From an uncultured Lachnospiraceae bacterium (GTDB lineage Bacteria; Bacillota; Clostridia; Lachnospirales; Lachnospiraceae), in NCBI GenBank assembly GCA_947652735.1, contig CANTEG010000003.1, positions 1 through 64,000 of the forward strand: 64,000 bases of DNA, written 5' to 3'. A program made the translations under genes and the position numbers. The notes under the pieces are model-generated. The model did not search any database and was not told the origin of the DNA. It worked only from the letters and a program-made list of their open reading frames with translations. Of the stretch, positions 51,455-58,376 are shown one piece after another. How positions within the stretch are numbered: position 1 is the first letter of the stretch; the number at the start of each line of letters is the position of its first letter.

Positions 51455-52216
51455 TTACCTTTTTGTATTGATGCTGTTCATATACTCTGACAGATTTTTA
51501 GCTCCGCTTGCAGAGATTGGCAGTGTGTCATTGTTGGACATTGTAACAATTTTATTGCCAAAATCCACAGATTTAACGTGGGCAGTGTTGATTAAGACAG
51601 AGCGGTGACAAAGTATGAACTCGTCAGTAAGGACATTCTGCAAATCACGCAGGCTGCTTCTCAGTGTATTTGTAAGTTTCGTTGTGACAACATTAATATG
51701 ATGAGGCACATCGGCAGTGTTAAGATATATGATATCAGACTGCTTGTAAATGTAACTTTCACCGCTGCTGCGAACGGTAAGTGTAGGTGTATCGGCTTTA
51801 TCCAAAACCCTGAGTGATGCCTGTTTCAGGCATGCAATAATTCTATTGTTAAAATCAGAAATATTATCCTTTATAATGAAGTCCATAGCTTCAACATGAA
51901 GCCGAAAGCTCATAAGTGCCAAGTTTGAGTGCGTTGTAATAAATATGATGAAAGCACGGCTGTCAATTTTGCGGATTAACTTCGATAATGTAAAACCATT
52001 TATGTGGTTATTTAAGTCGATATCTAAAAAATATATACCACGTACATTTCCCAATTCAATTTGATTTTTTGCGGCAGAAATCAGTGAGTACGGGTTTGTG
52101 AAGGCACCCACTATTTCCATTGGATAGTCTTCTATAATAATATTTTTTTGAATTAGTGATTTGTATTGCTCGGCAAGCTCACGCCTATCTTCGCAGATGT
52201 ATACAGGTGTTACCAT
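51455..52216 (-). CDS. AgrA-like LytTR response regulator
   Basis: 253 residues on the minus strand. Receiver domain about 1-125 with phosphoacceptor D65 (YFLDIDL) and acidic pair E9/D10; LytTR DNA-binding domain about 145-250 (YIYKQSDIIYLN, LCHRSVLINTAHVKSVDF). LytTR regulators bind pairs of direct repeats two helix turns apart; three such pairs lie beyond the kinase gene (53.68, 54.32 and 54.53 kb). It follows the kinase gene by 4 bp. The agr assignment rests on this context and the peptide gene. Confidence 0.9.
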   Translation of the reverse strand: MVTPVYICEDRRELAEQYKSLIQKNIIIEDYPMEIVGAFTNPYSLISAAKNQIELGNVRGIYFLDIDLNNHINGFTLSKLIRKIDSRAFIIFITTHSNLALMSFRLHVEAMDFIIKDNISDFNNRIIACLKQASLRVLDKADTPTLTVRSSGESYIYKQSDIIYLNTADVPHHINVVTTKLTNTLRSSLRDLQNVLTDEFILCHRSVLINTAHVKSVDFGNKIVTMSNNDTLPISASGAKNLSEYMNSINTKR

Positions 52217-52220
52217 AATA

Positions 52221-53543
52221 TTAATTCTCCTTACTGGTACGTGGTATTGAAAGTTTCTGTGTAAACATATTTTTTTCTATAATTGTATTATGTATAATAT
52301 TCTTATTTTTTTCAAGTATCTTATTGGCTAAATATAACCCCATTCCTCTGTCTTCGCCCTTGGTCGAATAACCTAAACGATTTAGTGAGCGGAAATCCAA
52401 ATCTGTTGCATAAAACCTATTGGATATAATAAAGTTTATATTGTCGTTATCGGCAAATGCCGTAAAAAATAAATCTTTTTCAGTGCCATCAGGGACATCG
52501 GCAAGGGCATCTATTGCATTATCAAGGTATATCCCAAGGATTTCAGCAATTTGGGCTTGTAATTCAAAACTGCTTATCAGGGAAGTTACTTCAACATGAA
52601 CCGTAAAACCTAACTCCTGTGCACGGATAAGCTTATTGTATACAAGGCTTTTTATTTCTGTAATATCAAGATTTTTCAAATTGGTAAAGTCCTGAATAGA
52701 GCTTGTCATTCTGCCTTTTGTGGGCAGGATGTAGGTTCTGTAATATTCTCTTAAGGCATCGTTGTCACCGGATTCTATATAAAAATGCATGGTAAGCAGC
52801 AAATTTAAATATTCATGTTTAAATTCCCTGATATTTCGGTACATTTTTTCCAGTTTGAGGGTATAGTCGTTGAGTGAGCTATATTGTGCATTTTGGTGTT
52901 TTATCTGCTCGTTGTTGAGTAAAAGTTTGATTGCAACCATAAGGAACACAGCCGTAAGTATAAAAAATACAATGAAAATGATACTGTTATACATGACAAG
53001 CTCCTGTGAAAATCCCTTTGCCTGTTCATAGGTGATGTTCAGCAAAAACAGTACAAGGCAGGTTGCAATAAACGCCATAAGAAGTATTAAGGGTTTACGG
53101 GAACCTGACAGGGAAGAACGTAAAAATCTTAATTGAAGCCTTGAAAAAACCAAGGCGGAACCGACAACAATAACAAGCTGAATTAATGAGATGATTAATG
53201 TATATGATTGATTTTTTGCCATTTCAGCTTCGGTCAGGTGTGCAAAGCTGTATGCAATACTTAAAATGATGTAGTTGCTGCACACGAGAAACAAATAGTT
53301 TGTATAGGAAAAGAAAAGTGCTGTTATTTTATTCATGGAAAAAATGCATAAAATTAAGCTGCTTAAAATGCATACACAAATAGCGTAATAGTTTTGCAAA
53401 AAAACAGCAATCACGACATTAGAAATAAGTAATGAAATAAAGGCGGCAGGCTTTTTCCTTGATGGAATGTTGTGTATGTTTGTAATAAAAAAATTACACA
53501 TCGTATATATTACACTGAAGGCGTAATTTATAAATATTTCCAT
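52221..53543 (-). CDS. AgrC-like GHKL sensor histidine kinase
   Basis: 440 residues. About six transmembrane helices in the first 220 residues, then a coiled segment with the phosphoacceptor His in REFKHEYLN and a GHKL ATPase domain: N box LGIYLDNAIDAL and G box GEDRGMGLYLANKI. This is the plan of AgrC-type peptide receptors. It is transcribed away from the AgrD-like gene; AGGAG lies before its ATG. Confidence 0.9.
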   Translation of the reverse strand: MEIFINYAFSVIYTMCNFFITNIHNIPSRKKPAAFISLLISNVVIAVFLQNYYAICVCILSSLILCIFSMNKITALFFSYTNYLFLVCSNYIILSIAYSFAHLTEAEMAKNQSYTLIISLIQLVIVVGSALVFSRLQLRFLRSSLSGSRKPLILLMAFIATCLVLFLLNITYEQAKGFSQELVMYNSIIFIVFFILTAVFLMVAIKLLLNNEQIKHQNAQYSSLNDYTLKLEKMYRNIREFKHEYLNLLLTMHFYIESGDNDALREYYRTYILPTKGRMTSSIQDFTNLKNLDITEIKSLVYNKLIRAQELGFTVHVEVTSLISSFELQAQIAEILGIYLDNAIDALADVPDGTEKDLFFTAFADNDNINFIISNRFYATDLDFRSLNRLGYSTKGEDRGMGLYLANKILEKNKNIIHNTIIEKNMFTQKLSIPRTSKEN

Positions 53544-53684: not shown

Positions 53685-53749
53685 ATTCAGGACAAATTTT
53701 AATATGCTTGGGACAGATTTAAAAATCAGCGACAAAAATATGATATAGT
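53685..53749 (+). promoter_or_regulatory. LytTR-type operator and promoter of the AgrD-like gene
   Basis: Direct repeats ATTCAGGACA (53685-53694) and GCTTGGGACA (53706-53715) are 21 bp apart, with a weaker third ATCAGCGACA at 53725. A -10-like TATAGT (53744-53749) follows about 28 bp after the second repeat, and no good -35 box is present, as expected of an activator-dependent promoter. The remaining sequence between agrC and the peptide gene shows no other feature than a short ACAGAT-TT-ATCTGT hairpin near 53837. Confidence 0.65.
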
Positions 53750-53948: not shown

Positions 53949-54092
53949 GTGGCAGTGAAGAAGATAAAGGACGCAGTATGTTCCTTGGGTAAGCATACTG
54001 CTTATAATTCCGTAGGAAAGAGTTTGCCTGCATATTTGTATGAGCCAAAGCTTCCACATGCTTTAAAGGAAAAGGCATCTGAGAAGAAGTAA
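53949..54092 (+). CDS. AgrD-like cyclic lactone autoinducer pre-peptide
   Basis: 47 residues from GTG 53949 (or 45 from GTG 53955), both placed after AAAGGAGG; a longer frame from ATG 53865 has no binding site. The plan fits AgrD: a basic amphipathic N-terminal helix (KKIKDAVCSLGK), a central segment, and a C-terminal processing motif YEPKLPHALKE close to the EPKxP element of staphylococcal AgrD. The residue closing the ring in most AgrD is Cys; here the segment before YEPKLP is SLPAYL, so S25 would give a lactone. The only Cys is C11 in the helix. It faces the AgrC/AgrA pair and has its own operator and terminator. No AgrB is in the window. Confidence 0.7.
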   Translation: MAVKKIKDAVCSLGKHTAYNSVGKSLPAYLYEPKLPHALKEKASEKK

Positions 54093-54319: not shown

Positions 54320-54350
54320 ACTCGGGACAAAAAAACAGCAATTCGGGACA
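54320..54350 (+). promoter_or_regulatory. Second LytTR-type direct-repeat pair
   Basis: ACTCGGGACA (54320-54329) and ATTCGGGACA (54341-54350), again exactly 21 bp apart. No convincing -10 box stands about 30 bp downstream, so it may be a weak promoter, an auxiliary site, or a site that loops to its neighbours. An 8-bp AGAAAATT/AATTTTCT hairpin near 54435 is the only other structure up to 54528. Confidence 0.55.
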
Positions 54351-54528
54351 TATGGTTTTGGGGCGTTTATTTGAAAAAATAAAGCATTTTGAGTGTTTTT
54401 TGTTAAAAAAACAAACACAATGTGTATTTGGAGCGAGAAAATTATAAATTTTCTGAAACTTACAAAAAGTTAAGGATTTTACCCTGAAAAATTACCTTGA
54501 TACGCCCTTTATATGGGCTGGGAATTTA

Positions 54529-54596
54529 ATTCAGGACGTTTTTCATGCTATTCAGGACAAAAATGGTAATAACACACAAAAATATGTTACTATAAT
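54529..54596 (+). promoter_or_regulatory. Third LytTR-type operator with promoter of the candidate RNA
   Basis: ATTCAGGACG (54529-54538) and ATTCAGGACA (54550-54559), 21 bp apart, then 31 bp to a consensus TATAAT (54591-54596). No -35 box lies at the expected place, which the second repeat partly occupies. Best-conserved pair of the three. Confidence 0.7.
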
Positions 54597-54602
54597 TTTG
54601 GC

Positions 54603-54921
54603 ATTAAAAGATGCCCTTAAGTAGAGCATGAGATTGATGATGTGGCGGTTAGATTGTAAGGTAATATACAATTATTATTGTGGGTCAATGTTTCAAATAT
54701 AAAAAACAAAACATTCCGAAGGGGAGCATGGATTGTTTTTGTTTGAAAAAGAGCGGACTATTACAATTCTTGGGGAGCAATTTGAAATATTGGCGGAATA
54801 CAAGTTGATATATCATTTAAATTGACACATGCATCATCTCATGCTTTAAAAAAATATAATAGCAACAACAAACAAAACCTGTAAATGGATAATATAATAC
54901 ATTTACAGGTTTTATTTGTTG
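54603..54921 (+). ncRNA. Candidate quorum-controlled regulatory RNA (RNAIII-like in position)
   Basis: About 320 nt from the predicted start after TATAAT 54591 to a strong terminator. No ordinary gene fits. AGCATGAGAT plus GATG plus ATGTG (54625-54644) pairs with CACAT, CATC and ATCTCATGCT (54826-54845): 19 bp with two single-base bulges, which closes some 180 nt of inner sequence. Inside, GGGGAGCA occurs twice (about 54721 and 54772) and TGGCGG twice (about 54643 and 54791), possible loop sequences for RNA targets. A 26-codon frame at 54728-54808 exists but its GGGGAG is too near the ATG. The role is inferred from position and structure only. Confidence 0.55.
54866..54921 (+). terminator. 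Strong terminator of the candidate RNA
   Basis: A 22-bp stem with one mismatch (54866-54887 against 54900-54921, core AACCTGTAAATG/CATTTACAGGTT), 12-nt loop. The T-rich 3' arm makes it work on the plus strand; the A-rich 5' arm allows use from the other side. Confidence 0.85.
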
Positions 54922-54961
54922 TCTGACATGAATAATTATTTATTTGCAGAAGCTATGGGTG

Positions 54962-54990
54962 TTGACCAATTTAATATAAATGTATAAAAT
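54962..54990 (+). promoter_or_regulatory. Promoter of the ABC exporter operon
   Basis: TTGACC at 54962-54967, 17-bp spacer, TAAAAT at 54985-54990. The exporter therefore has its own start separate from the agr-like locus. Confidence 0.65.
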
Positions 54991-55035
54991 AAAGTATCTG
55001 ATGAAATATAGAATTAAATGTAATTCGGAGGGTGT

Positions 55036-55737
55036 ATGAGCTACGTAGAATTTAAACATGTATACAAGACATATCAAAGCGGTGATATAAAGGTAGAGGC
55101 ATTAAAAGATGCCAGCTTTGAGATTGGTAAGGGTGAAATATGTGTCATAGTAGGACAGTCAGGTGCAGGAAAAACTACTTTGCTTAACATACTCGGAGGT
55201 ATGGATAAGCTCACGAATGGTAATGTTTTTTTGGACGGAAAGGACGTGGCGGAATATAATAAAAAACAGCTTGCAACATACAGGAGACAGGACATAGGTT
55301 TTGTATTTCAGTTTTATAATCTGATTCCTAATCTTACTGCCATTGAAAACGTGGAAATTGCGACACAGCTTTCAAAGAATCCAATGAATCCTGAGGAGGT
55401 ACTTGAGATGGTGGGATTAAAGGAACGGCGTGATAATTTCCCGGCACAGCTTTCAGGCGGTGAACAGCAAAGAGTATCCATTGCAAGAGCACTGGCAAAA
55501 AATCCTAAGCTTCTTTTGTGTGATGAGCCTACAGGTGCACTTGATTATGAGACGGGAAAAGCTGTTCTGAAGCTGCTTCAGGATTGCAGCAGAAAAAATG
55601 GTATGACAGTTGTTATCATAACCCATAATCAGGCACTCACGGCAATGGCAGACAGAATAATAAAGGTAAAGAATGGTCAGATTTCATCAGTGGCAATCAA
55701 CGAAAATGTTGTTCCGATAGAAAAGATAGAGTGGTAA
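55036..55737 (+). CDS. ABC transporter ATP-binding protein (MacB/LolD type)
   Basis: 233 residues. Walker [11 protein letters not shown]-loop FQFYNLIPN, signature [14 protein letters not shown], Walker [14 protein letters not shown]-loop ITHN. Partner of the FtsX-like permease that begins at the end of this gene. GGAGGG precedes ATG 55036. Such pairs move lipids, peptides or act in antimicrobial-peptide defence. Confidence 0.93.
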
Positions 55738-55742
55738 AAAAC

Positions 55743-58376
55743 ATGAAGAATGCATATGGAAAAAATATAGCCCGTACAATTAAAAAAAGTATTGGAAGAT
55801 ATTTGGCAATTATGGCAATCGTTGCGTTGGGAGTCGGCTTTTTTTCGGGACTTAAGGTCTCAAAGCCTGCCATGGTTGAAACGGGAAATTCTTACATAAA
55901 GGAGCATAATCTGTACGATTTTAAGCTTCTCTCCACATACGGCTTTACATCAGATGAGGTTGACACAATGAAAGAGTCATTTATGGCAGCAGAGGGAGCA
56001 TACAGTCAGGATTTTATTTATGTGGATTCTGAAGGAAATGAATCGGTTATCAAGGCTTGCTCCATAACGGAAACTGTAAATAATCTTAAGCTTGTTGAGG
56101 GACGTCTCCCTGAAAATAAAAATGAGTGTGTGTTAGATGCGTATTCCTATAGTGCAGATATGATAGGAAAAGAGCTTTCCATAGATGACAGTAACACGGA
56201 TGAGATAAAGGATATGTTTGACAGTAACACATATACGGTTGTGGGTACTGTTTCTTCCCCGGTTTATCTTAATTATGAGAGGGGTACCACTTCTCTCGGT
56301 AATGGAAGATTAGGGGGCTTTGTTTATATGCCTAAAGAATCATTTGCATCAGAATATTACACGGAGATGTATTTGAAGTGTCAGGACAGCTTTGATATTT
56401 ATACGGATGAATATGATGACTATATTGAGAGTATAACCAATTATGTTGAAAGCAAGCTGGAAGAAACCATAGATGTAAGATATGAGGAGCTGCTTGAGGA
56501 CATTGACAGGGAATATAATGAAGCGGTTGACGAGATATCGGCTAAGGTTAAAGAGCAGTATACGCTTGCATTTTACAATAACCTGATTGAATCGGGGTAC
56601 ACCGAGAGTATCGTGGATGAGATGTTAAGGGATGGTACACTTTCGCTTCCACAGGAAGAAATTGATAAACAGATAGATGAGCTGGTCAGCGAGATAGAAC
56701 TACCTGAGCCAGCCGAGCCAGAGACGTATGTTTTGGATAGAAATTCCAATATAGGTTATGTGTGCTTTAAAAATGATTCCTCAATCGTTGAGGGAATAGC
56801 AAGGATTTTCCCTGTATTTTTCTTTTTGATAGCAGCACTTGTGTGTTCCACAACAATGACAAGAATGATTGATGACGAGAGGGGACAGATTGGAACCTTG
56901 AGAGCACTGGGATATAGTAATGGTTCCATTATATTAAAGTATGTCATATATTCGGGAAGTGCCGCAGGAATTGGCGGAATAGCAGGCTTTTTTGGCGGTA
57001 CGGTTGTATTTCCGTATGTCATATGGAATGCGTATGATTTGATGTATGGGTTTGCGGATATTGAGTATTATTTTTCACCGGTGATGCTTGTAATATCATT
57101 GATTGTTGCATTTTTATGCTCGGCAGGAACGACATACATTGCATGTAAAAATGAGCTGAAATGTACTCCTGCGGACTTAATAAGACCTAAGGCTCCAGCC
57201 GCAGGAAAAAGAATTTTGCTTGAGAGAATTACGCCTGTATGGAAGCGTATGAAGTTTCTGTATAAGGTTACGGCAAGAAATGTATTCAGATTTAAAAAGC
57301 GTATGTTTATGATGATTCTTGGCATTGCAGGATGTATGGCTCTTGTGGTGACGGGACTTGGACTGAAGGATTCAATCTCAAACATAGCGGCTTTTCAGTA
57401 TGACGAGATAGAGATATTTGATATTGATGCGACATTTTCTGAACCTATAAATGACAGCCTGAGAGATGAGGTTAACGAGGCATTTGGGGATGATATAGAG
57501 GCGTGTGCAGAGCTTTACAAAACGTCCTTGGAATATAAGTCATCAGATATGTCAAAGACGGTTTATCTTACGGTAGCGGAAGGTGAGAGTCTCAACGGCT
57601 TTGTTGACTTTCACAAAAACGGAAAGCAGGTTGAGTATCCTGAATATGGTAAGGTGATGCTCTCCAAAATGCTGGCGGATACGGCAGGGGTAAAAGCGGG
57701 AGATACATTTACATTGACTGACAGTGATGGAAAAAGGGTTGAGCTTGTAGTATCAGGCATATTTGAAAATTATGTATGGCATTATGCATACATAACACCA
57801 AAAACCTATGAGGATTTCTTTGGAAAGAAGTATGAACCGAATTCCTTGTACATAAATTTCAAGGATGCTGCTGTCTCCTATGAGGCAGGTGCAGCACTGA
57901 CAGATATCGAGGGTGTTATGAATGTAAATGTTGTTATGGCACTTAAGGACAGGATTGCAAATATGATGAAAATGCTCAATTCTGTTGTATGGCTTGTTAT
58001 AGGCTGTGCGGCAGCACTGGCATTTATCGTGCTGATTAACCTGAGCAATATAAATATAACGGAGCGTGTCAGGGAAATCGCAACGATAAAAGTGTTGGGT
58101 TTTTATGCAGGAGAGACAGGGTCTTATGTATTTCGGGAAAATGTTGTGTTGACGCTGCTTGGAATCCTCGTCGGGCTTCCGCTCGGAAAGTGGCTGCATG
58201 CATTTGTCATATCCCAGATTAAAATTGACCTTATTGCCTTTAAGATAACAATATTCCCTATCAGCTATATTTTGAGTGTGCTGATTGTATTTCTGTTCCT
58301 TATCATAGTTGACCTGATAATGAGAAGAAAGCTTGATGCAATAGACATGGCAGAATCACTCAAATCTATTGAGTAG
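55743..58376 (+). CDS. FtsX-like ABC permease with long external domain
   Basis: 877 residues from ATG 55743 (a GTG at 55731 overlaps the ATPase gene and is the alternative). One N-terminal helix, a large outer region (about 45-350) with an acidic coiled-coil stretch near 230-325, three helices with an FtsX core (ARIFPVFFFLIAALVC, DERGQIGTLRALGYS), a second outer domain and a last FtsX core (ERVREIATIKVLGFYAGE). The duplicated FtsX plan matches exporters such as YknZ/MacB-like or SalY-type. Substrate unknown; export of a peptide is possible but not shown. Confidence 0.88.
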   Translation: MKNAYGKNIARTIKKSIGRYLAIMAIVALGVGFFSGLKVSKPAMVETGNSYIKEHNLYDFKLLSTYGFTSDEVDTMKESFMAAEGAYSQDFIYVDSEGNESVIKACSITETVNNLKLVEGRLPENKNECVLDAYSYSADMIGKELSIDDSNTDEIKDMFDSNTYTVVGTVSSPVYLNYERGTTSLGNGRLGGFVYMPKESFASEYYTEMYLKCQDSFDIYTDEYDDYIESITNYVESKLEETIDVRYEELLEDIDREYNEAVDEISAKVKEQYTLAFYNNLIESGYTESIVDEMLRDGTLSLPQEEIDKQIDELVSEIELPEPAEPETYVLDRNSNIGYVCFKNDSSIVEGIARIFPVFFFLIAALVCSTTMTRMIDDERGQIGTLRALGYSNGSIILKYVIYSGSAAGIGGIAGFFGGTVVFPYVIWNAYDLMYGFADIEYYFSPVMLVISLIVAFLCSAGTTYIACKNELKCTPADLIRPKAPAAGKRILLERITPVWKRMKFLYKVTARNVFRFKKRMFMMILGIAGCMALVVTGLGLKDSISNIAAFQYDEIEIFDIDATFSEPINDSLRDEVNEAFGDDIEACAELYKTSLEYKSSDMSKTVYLTVAEGESLNGFVDFHKNGKQVEYPEYGKVMLSKMLADTAGVKAGDTFTLTDSDGKRVELVVSGIFENYVWHYAYITPKTYEDFFGKKYEPNSLYINFKDAAVSYEAGAALTDIEGVMNVNVVMALKDRIANMMKMLNSVVWLVIGCAAALAFIVLINLSNINITERVREIATIKVLGFYAGETGSYVFRENVVLTLLGILVGLPLGKWLHAFVISQIKIDLIAFKITIFPISYILSVLIVFLFLIIVDLIMRRKLDAIDMAESLKSIE

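Follow-up and report, generated by a model that had tools for sequence, protein, structure and literature searches.

The agr-type module and its neighbourhood

The window, i.e., the whole 64,000-nucleotide stretch of DNA analysed here, carries a predicted structured RNA gene between ilvE and an ABC-transporter gene, where, judged by gene order, it is part of an agrC-agrA/agrD/RNA module. The genes and flanking features are the following (window positions):

51455–52216, minus strand: AgrA-like response regulator with a LytTR domain (NF046049, 140.4 bits, under the cut-off of 400; Pfam LytTR and receiver domains)
52221–53543, minus strand: AgrC-like histidine kinase (NF046015, 170.6 bits, under the cut-off of 500; GHKL ATPase domain)
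53955–54092, plus strand: 45-aa precursor of an agrD-like signal peptide, read from GTG (orthologues in genomes G028 and G011; open reading frame readable from 53865)
54600–54921, plus strand: gene of the structured RNA, with a predicted transcript length of about 320 nt (fold z −8.96; homologues in G028 and G011, two paralogues in the same genome)
54962–54990, plus strand: sigma-70-type promoter of the ABC gene, TTGACC-17-TAAAAT (separate from the RNA; by eye, G028 and G011 have a similar one in the corresponding position)
55036–58376, plus strand: ABC transporter ATPase and FtsX/MacB-type permease, flanking and outside the module (permease in 29 of 37 genus genomes)

The two NCBIfam models listed are the best matches of the kinase and the regulator, both of which score below the equivalog cut-offs. 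No family match was found for the 75-aa agrD-like reading frame; its reading as AgrD is supported by more distant AgrD-like homologues in genome G033, since these sit directly behind agrB. Where a ring Cys would be expected, the peptide has Ser (S-L-P-A-Y-L, ahead of YEPKLP); this part varies between species, and a Ser-linked or linear signal is possible. The agrB gene is not linked to the module: it lies on contig C8 of the same genome (G000), is orthologous to the agrB of G028 and G011, and its product would be the one that processes the window peptide. A second agrB with an adjacent kinase and regulator was also seen in this genome (L046:4686–7298, contig C1), with 25–29% identity to the window system.

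In three relatives (G001, G036 and G034) the site is empty, the gap between ilvE and the ABC gene being 71, 325 and 332 nt, respectively. In G011, only 17 nt lie between the end of the kinase gene and that of contig C8, and agrD is found close to the beginning of another contig, C22, an arrangement consistent with the same gene order; three extra genes separate agrD from the RNA in that genome. The promoter of the ABC gene is, as a match alone, weak, as the promoter scan there returned 14 promoter-like sites vs. 9.6 expected.

Direct repeats and promoters

Upstream of agrD and of the RNA lie direct repeats of the LytTR/AgrA type:

53686–53715, plus strand: repeat pair of agrD (3 mismatches; −10 at 23 bp)
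54321–54350, plus strand: distal repeat pair, upstream of the promoter-proximal pair by about 210 bp (3 mismatches; counterparts at a similar distance in G028, with 3 mismatches, and G011, with 0)
54530–54559, plus strand: promoter-proximal repeat pair of the RNA, 9-12-9 bp (1 mismatch to TTCAGGACA-N12-TTCAGGACA; same place in G028 and G011)
54583–54593, plus strand: extended −10 TATG-T-TACTAT, 23 bp behind the proximal pair (layout common to 11 of 14 sites)

The pattern TTCAGGACA-N12-TTCAGGACA, allowing up to three mismatches, matches the window three times (53686, 54321 and 54530), each time at the RNA locus, vs. 0.03 matches expected, which bears out the LytTR-type repeats placed before the RNA in the initial annotation. 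The same 9-12-9 layout is stated for LytTR regulators in a passage of PMC2766830. No −10 element is seen behind the distal pair, which is perhaps an accessory site. Genome-wide, sites with at most two mismatches number 3, 6 and 5 in G000, G028 and G011, respectively, and those with at most three number 12, 13 and 16, vs. 10, 4 and 4 for a reversed-pattern control; the weak matches in G000 are thus mostly noise. All three species have repeat pairs before both agrD and the RNA, and G028 and G011 also before agrB, while the agrB of the window genome has one half-site-like stretch only. Further sites precede two genes in G028 (DUF6034 and LytTR), one for an exported protein in G000, one for a 176-aa product in G000 and G011 alike (with a weak HTH_3 match for one of the two products) and, by eye, one for an ABC-type ATPase in G011.

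For the promoter layout, 14 sites were compared, i.e., 12 of the 14 matches with at most two mismatches and two with three (agrD of G000 and G011); the G011 distal site, which was read separately, G028 C7:22080 and most three-mismatch matches were left out. An extended −10 of the form TRTG-N-TA follows at 23 bp in ten of these sites and at 22 bp in one, and the three lacking it (G000 C6, G028 C29 and G011 C24) are all perfect or near-perfect repeats. Because this layout is common to agrD and other genes, the −10 of the RNA is read as TACTAT at 54588–54593, with TG at 54585–54586. This puts the most likely transcription start at about 54600, where a 5′ hairpin begins. The TATAAT named earlier is indeed present (54591–54596), but the common layout favours TACTAT as the −10, and the start first given as 54603 appears slightly off; the hairpin that begins at 54600 is kept in four of five copies. 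With a start at about 54600, the repeat pair would be centred near −55; for S. aureus, a repeat centre near −60 is given in a section of PMC4227749.

Homologues and distribution

Of 61 genomes searched at the DNA level, six gave matches. Besides the window genome itself these are G028 (82% identity) and G011 (74%), together with three in which the match is limited to stretches of 30–39 nt. The window genome holds two tandem paralogues, C4a and C4b, on contig C4, with 69% identity to the window RNA. They lie at L016:8420–9160, flanked by two fragments of an ABC ATPase frame; by eye, C4a keeps the promoter region in a decayed form, and C4b has a different sigma-70-type promoter and no 5′ hairpin. 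Two quorum-type promoters elsewhere (L080:4370–4500 and L083:4090–4290) have a further element, TTTTGTCCTAGTGACAA, in common, and the similar CTAGTGACA precedes C4b, which hints at a second regulator.

All five homologues contain an identical 19-nt core, TATTACAATTCTTGGGGAG. As a pattern with at most three mismatches, the core matches in 3 of the 37 genus genomes, i.e., the window genome, G028 and G011. An exact 18-mer of it has seven matches in the genome_contigs collection (the two known relatives and five without wider similarity) and one match in viral contigs, by chance and likewise without wider similarity; plasmid and phage collections gave no copies of the RNA at the sensitivity used. 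A covariance model of the core, run with strict filters, scored above chance in the window genome alone when applied to 392 order genomes, which evidently did not include G028 and G011; its three further matches (E 0.0015–0.004) are at about the level expected by chance for 392 genomes. As far as tested, the RNA is confined to three related species.

Judged by the ABC permease of the window, these three species are close (88–91% identity; 78% in the next genome). G028, which is placed in the genus of the window genome, has an ilvE 97% identical to the one there. Of the 37 genus genomes, only the three with the RNA have the orthologous AgrA-like regulator, whose best matches among the 392 order genomes outside the genus are 35–39% identical; given how close the carriers are, this co-occurrence may reflect one inheritance event. 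Weaker AgrD-like peptides occur in five further genomes of the 37 without a core match, and the RNA therefore belongs to this one module.

Structure and conserved motifs of the RNA

The predicted fold begins with a 5′ hairpin, continues as a rod of about 227 nt that a long-range stem closes, and ends in a terminator hairpin. Its elements are the following:

54600–54615, plus strand: 5′-terminal hairpin GGCAU/AUGCC (in four of five homologues, missing from C4b)
54622–54644, plus strand: basal long-range stem, 5′ arm (over the five sequences, 97.9% of cells are paired; 19 pairs entered the count)
54704–54747, plus strand: hairpin H1, tipped by AAGGGGAG (GGGGAG at 54721–54726; stem with 89.8% of cells paired and three double-changed pairs)
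54749–54777, plus strand: hairpin H2, AAGAG/UUCUU around CGGACUAUUACAA, then GGGGAG at 54772–54777 (holds the 19-nt core)
54826–54848, plus strand: basal long-range stem, 3′ arm (partner of 54622–54644)
54865–54922, plus strand: terminator hairpin with a U-rich 3′ side (inverted repeat 54865–54893/54894–54922, 90% complementary)

Measured against dinucleotide shuffles, the fold has a z of −7.5 for 54603–54921 and of −9.0 when the start is moved to 54600; minus the terminator, the window RNA has −6.2 and the five homologous RNAs range from −4.0 to −6.2. In 256 background windows of 250 nt the mean z was −0.9 (sd 1.4), and the one window below the RNA overlaps a tRNA. The opposite strand folds as well: the reverse complements of the five RNAs (without terminator) range from −0.9 to −5.2, with −5.1 for that of the window RNA, each being less extreme than its RNA. 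These values and the fold, most of which the homologues share, bear out the reading of the locus as a structured RNA gene, and both the long-range stem and the terminator stem lie where they had been placed at the outset. The terminator repeat was missed by a consensus scan for terminators, whose loop limit is 8. Terminator-like hairpins also follow the RNA in G028 and G011, and no convincing one was found behind C4a or C4b.

The five sequences have the inner helices and the strictly kept H2 loop in common, and the apical part is the most conserved region, the ends being less so. For 39 pairs, chosen from 74 RNAalifold consensus pairs with weaker and core pairs left out, 94.7% of 189 cells pair, compared with 24–49% in slid versions, and five pairs are double-changed, a number reached by none of 500 shuffles. 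The basal stem alone has two double-changed pairs, and 34 of 500 shuffles do as well. In the H1/H2 core, counted apart on a structure drawn by hand from single-sequence folds, 92.9% of cells pair and three pairs are double-changed; 118 of 500 shuffles equal that count and 15 of 500 the covariation score. The RNAalifold covariation term is +1.9, a penalty and thus slightly unfavourable for these five sequences. The modelled fold is well supported by consistent pairing and energy and less so by covariation, the modest covariation support reflecting the number of sequences, which is five. Stem and loops are kept in both relatives that have the orthologous AgrA-like regulator.

The hexamer GGGGAG occurs exactly twice in each of the five RNAs, vs. 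0.03–0.05 expected from single-base shuffles; in the window copy the two occurrences are those noted from the start as GGGGAGCA, at 54721 and 54772. The first is mostly unpaired in four of the five predicted folds and mostly paired in the window copy, and the second, which is within CUUGGGGAG beside a 13-nt conserved loop, is only partly open in most copies. TGGCGG, the other motif pointed out as a possible target-binding loop, is also found twice in the window copy, but it is not conserved, with one occurrence in G028 and none in the other three RNAs.

Comparison with known agr-type RNAs

The Rfam model of RNAIII has no match in the window at its gathering score and none among the matches up to E 10 for 54500–55030, in line with the initial view that the sequence is unrelated to RNAIII. 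Those matches number 20, all under gathering and mostly microRNA models on the terminator hairpin, with weak ones to psm_mec_RNA, LhrC and RsaJ. Identity with RNAIII was rejected on the lack of an Rfam match, of UCCC loops and of a conserved reading frame (no hld). The window RNA resembles RNAIII of S. aureus in that it is a long, structured, terminated RNA gene in an agr locus with AgrA-type direct repeats upstream; it differs in its purine motifs (GGGGAG instead of UCCC), in having no hld and in its unlinked agrB.

FasX of Streptococcus pyogenes is a regulatory RNA tied to an agr-related two-component locus, a setting like that of the window RNA. According to PMC4691137, however, it pairs through CU-rich stretches such as UCAAUCCCC, whereas the five RNAs described here contain neither UCCC nor CUCC from the 5′ hairpin to the end of the rod. 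Because of this absence, their polarity is opposite to that of the CU motifs of RNAIII, FasX and LhrC, which are tabulated in PMC4691137. The same paper gives RNAIII 14 hairpins, in contrast to the one rod of the window RNA.

RNAs in the regulon of agr/VirR-type regulators, as described in portions of PMC10602386 and PMC4691137, include RNAIII, VR-RNA and SpoZ. In SpoZ of Clostridioides difficile (RgaS-RgaR/Agr1), direct repeats 21 bp apart likewise precede the RNA and the regulator also drives agrB1D1, whereas AgrD1 does not activate RgaS-RgaR, the kinase and regulator being orphans (PMC10602386, in part). VR-RNA of Clostridium perfringens (VirS-VirR) is a 386-nt RNA activated by an agr-linked two-component system, and it differs in that its 3′ region acts on the colA mRNA (PMC4691137, in part). 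The window RNA has the traits of such effectors at the sequence level: it is linked to agr genes, it stands behind LytTR-type repeats with a 12-bp spacer, and it is a separate unit with a conserved structure. As far as searched, with Rfam models for the sequence and published descriptions for SpoZ and VR-RNA, it forms a new family within a kind of RNA that is already known.

Proposed role and alternatives

Taken as a whole, we consider it fairly probable that this RNA regulates in trans, as the effector of an agr-type quorum-sensing module. At the sequence level, a quorum-activated RNA wired like RNAIII has good support. The layout of repeats and promoter suggests that it is probably switched on by the adjacent quorum-sensing system, and it may play a part like that of RNAIII in staphylococci. 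The initial proposal of a functional analogue of RNAIII thus stands as to a separate structured RNA gene in an agr-like module behind AgrA-type repeats, but not as to the exact start, the −10 and the TGGCGG motifs.

In the proposed mechanism, the window agrD peptide would be made by the unlinked AgrB and sensed by the AgrC-like kinase, and the phosphorylated AgrA-like regulator would bind the two 9-bp direct repeats of 21-bp period, rendering the extended −10 promoter active. The RNA would start at about 54600 and end at the hairpin 54865–54922, its 5′ hairpin and rod stabilising it and presenting AAGGGGAG at the H1 tip and CUUGGGGAG beside the 13-nt conserved loop. These purine elements would most likely pair with CUCCCC/CUCCUU-type stretches of target RNAs, whose translation or stability would change. 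The pairing step by itself, GGGGAG with pyrimidine-rich targets, is a tentative proposal that we hold with a little less than even confidence; when targets were predicted among 208 upstream regions of the fetched loci (118 + 43 + 47, each running from −120 to +60 of an open reading frame picked mechanically), the results stayed within the range of shuffled controls.

Other roles can be envisaged for the same two elements. Being Shine-Dalgarno-like, they might titrate small RNAs rich in C, or a protein or ribosomal component that recognises such elements, so that many mRNAs would be released at once at high density; such a sponge, which we regard as rather unlikely, would invert the polarity of C-rich loops that block Shine-Dalgarno sites. 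To our knowledge, no earlier agr-type effector RNA has such an inverted polarity. The elements might instead sequester an RNA-binding protein such as CsrA, as do CsrB and RsmZ, which are decoys of CsrA in Gammaproteobacteria. CsrA is encoded in 33 of the 37 genus genomes, including all three RNA carriers, one genome has three copies of the RNA, and the two identical elements contain GGA, one of them at a hairpin tip. However, compared with single-base shuffles, none of the five RNAs shows a clear excess of GGA or A-N-GGA (GGA in G028 comes closest, with eight occurrences, reached by 7.7% of shuffles), and A-N-GGA, the motif considered for CsrB/RsmZ-type RNAs, is found zero to two times per RNA. 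The 19 conserved nucleotides exceed what a GGA site needs, and 30 genomes have CsrA without the RNA core, which makes a protein decoy unlikely. A small mRNA for a quorum-regulated peptide, partly like the hld portion of RNAIII, would account for AAGGGGAG as a ribosome-binding-site-like stretch, followed after 6–7 nt by a start codon in the window (TTG), G028 and C4b (both ATG). G011 and C4a lack such a start, though, the frames differ between copies despite the conserved nucleotides, and the two window reading frames tested have no Pfam match, so we judge this quite improbable. A coding RNA in general was rejected because no frame is conserved among the five copies, which agrees with the earlier remark that the stretch holds no normal gene.

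In all three species the RNA immediately precedes the ABC gene, which would suit a cis-acting leader or attenuator of the transporter operon, but a separate predicted promoter serves the ABC gene downstream of the RNA terminator, no intact ABC ATPase directly follows the C4 copies, and the RNA is absent from all seven further upstream regions read, although the permease occurs in 29 of the 37 genomes; we therefore place little credence in a leader. Least of all do we expect a DNA-level element (a MITE-like inverted repeat) or a 6S-type RNA in place of a dedicated regulatory RNA. The long inverted repeat, a rod shape like that of 6S RNA, good folding on both strands and the two tandem copies between ABC ATPase frame fragments on C4 speak for it, whereas the apical part rather than the ends is most conserved, and the copies seen are three in the genome and none in plasmid or phage collections at the sensitivity used. 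Identity with 6S RNA was itself rejected: canonical 6S RNA (RF00013) matches elsewhere in all three genomes and not in the window.

The reading we prefer, an effector RNA of the agr-type module, would extend a group whose members in the literature found come from pathogens. No agr-type regulatory RNA of Lachnospiraceae was found in the portion of the open-access PMC literature searched, and the main text of a screen for structured RNAs in human microbiomes (PMC8040213) contains neither agr, quorum nor Lachnospir-. The module is compact (kinase, regulator, peptide and RNA), with an empty site in relatives and an orphan agrB that has the same kind of promoter in two relatives, and the RNA core is short, almost invariant and directly testable. 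If the GGGGAG elements are the active part, the RNA would work with a polarity opposite to that of C-rich pairing RNAs such as RNAIII, FasX and LhrC. A set of genes for a DUF6034 lipoprotein-like protein, an exported protein of about 160 aa and a protein of about 300 aa was also seen to recur near RNA copies or repeat sites (L015:596–3369, L016:13048–15879 and L083:1113–4124), and a secreted output of the quorum system is a possible role for it.
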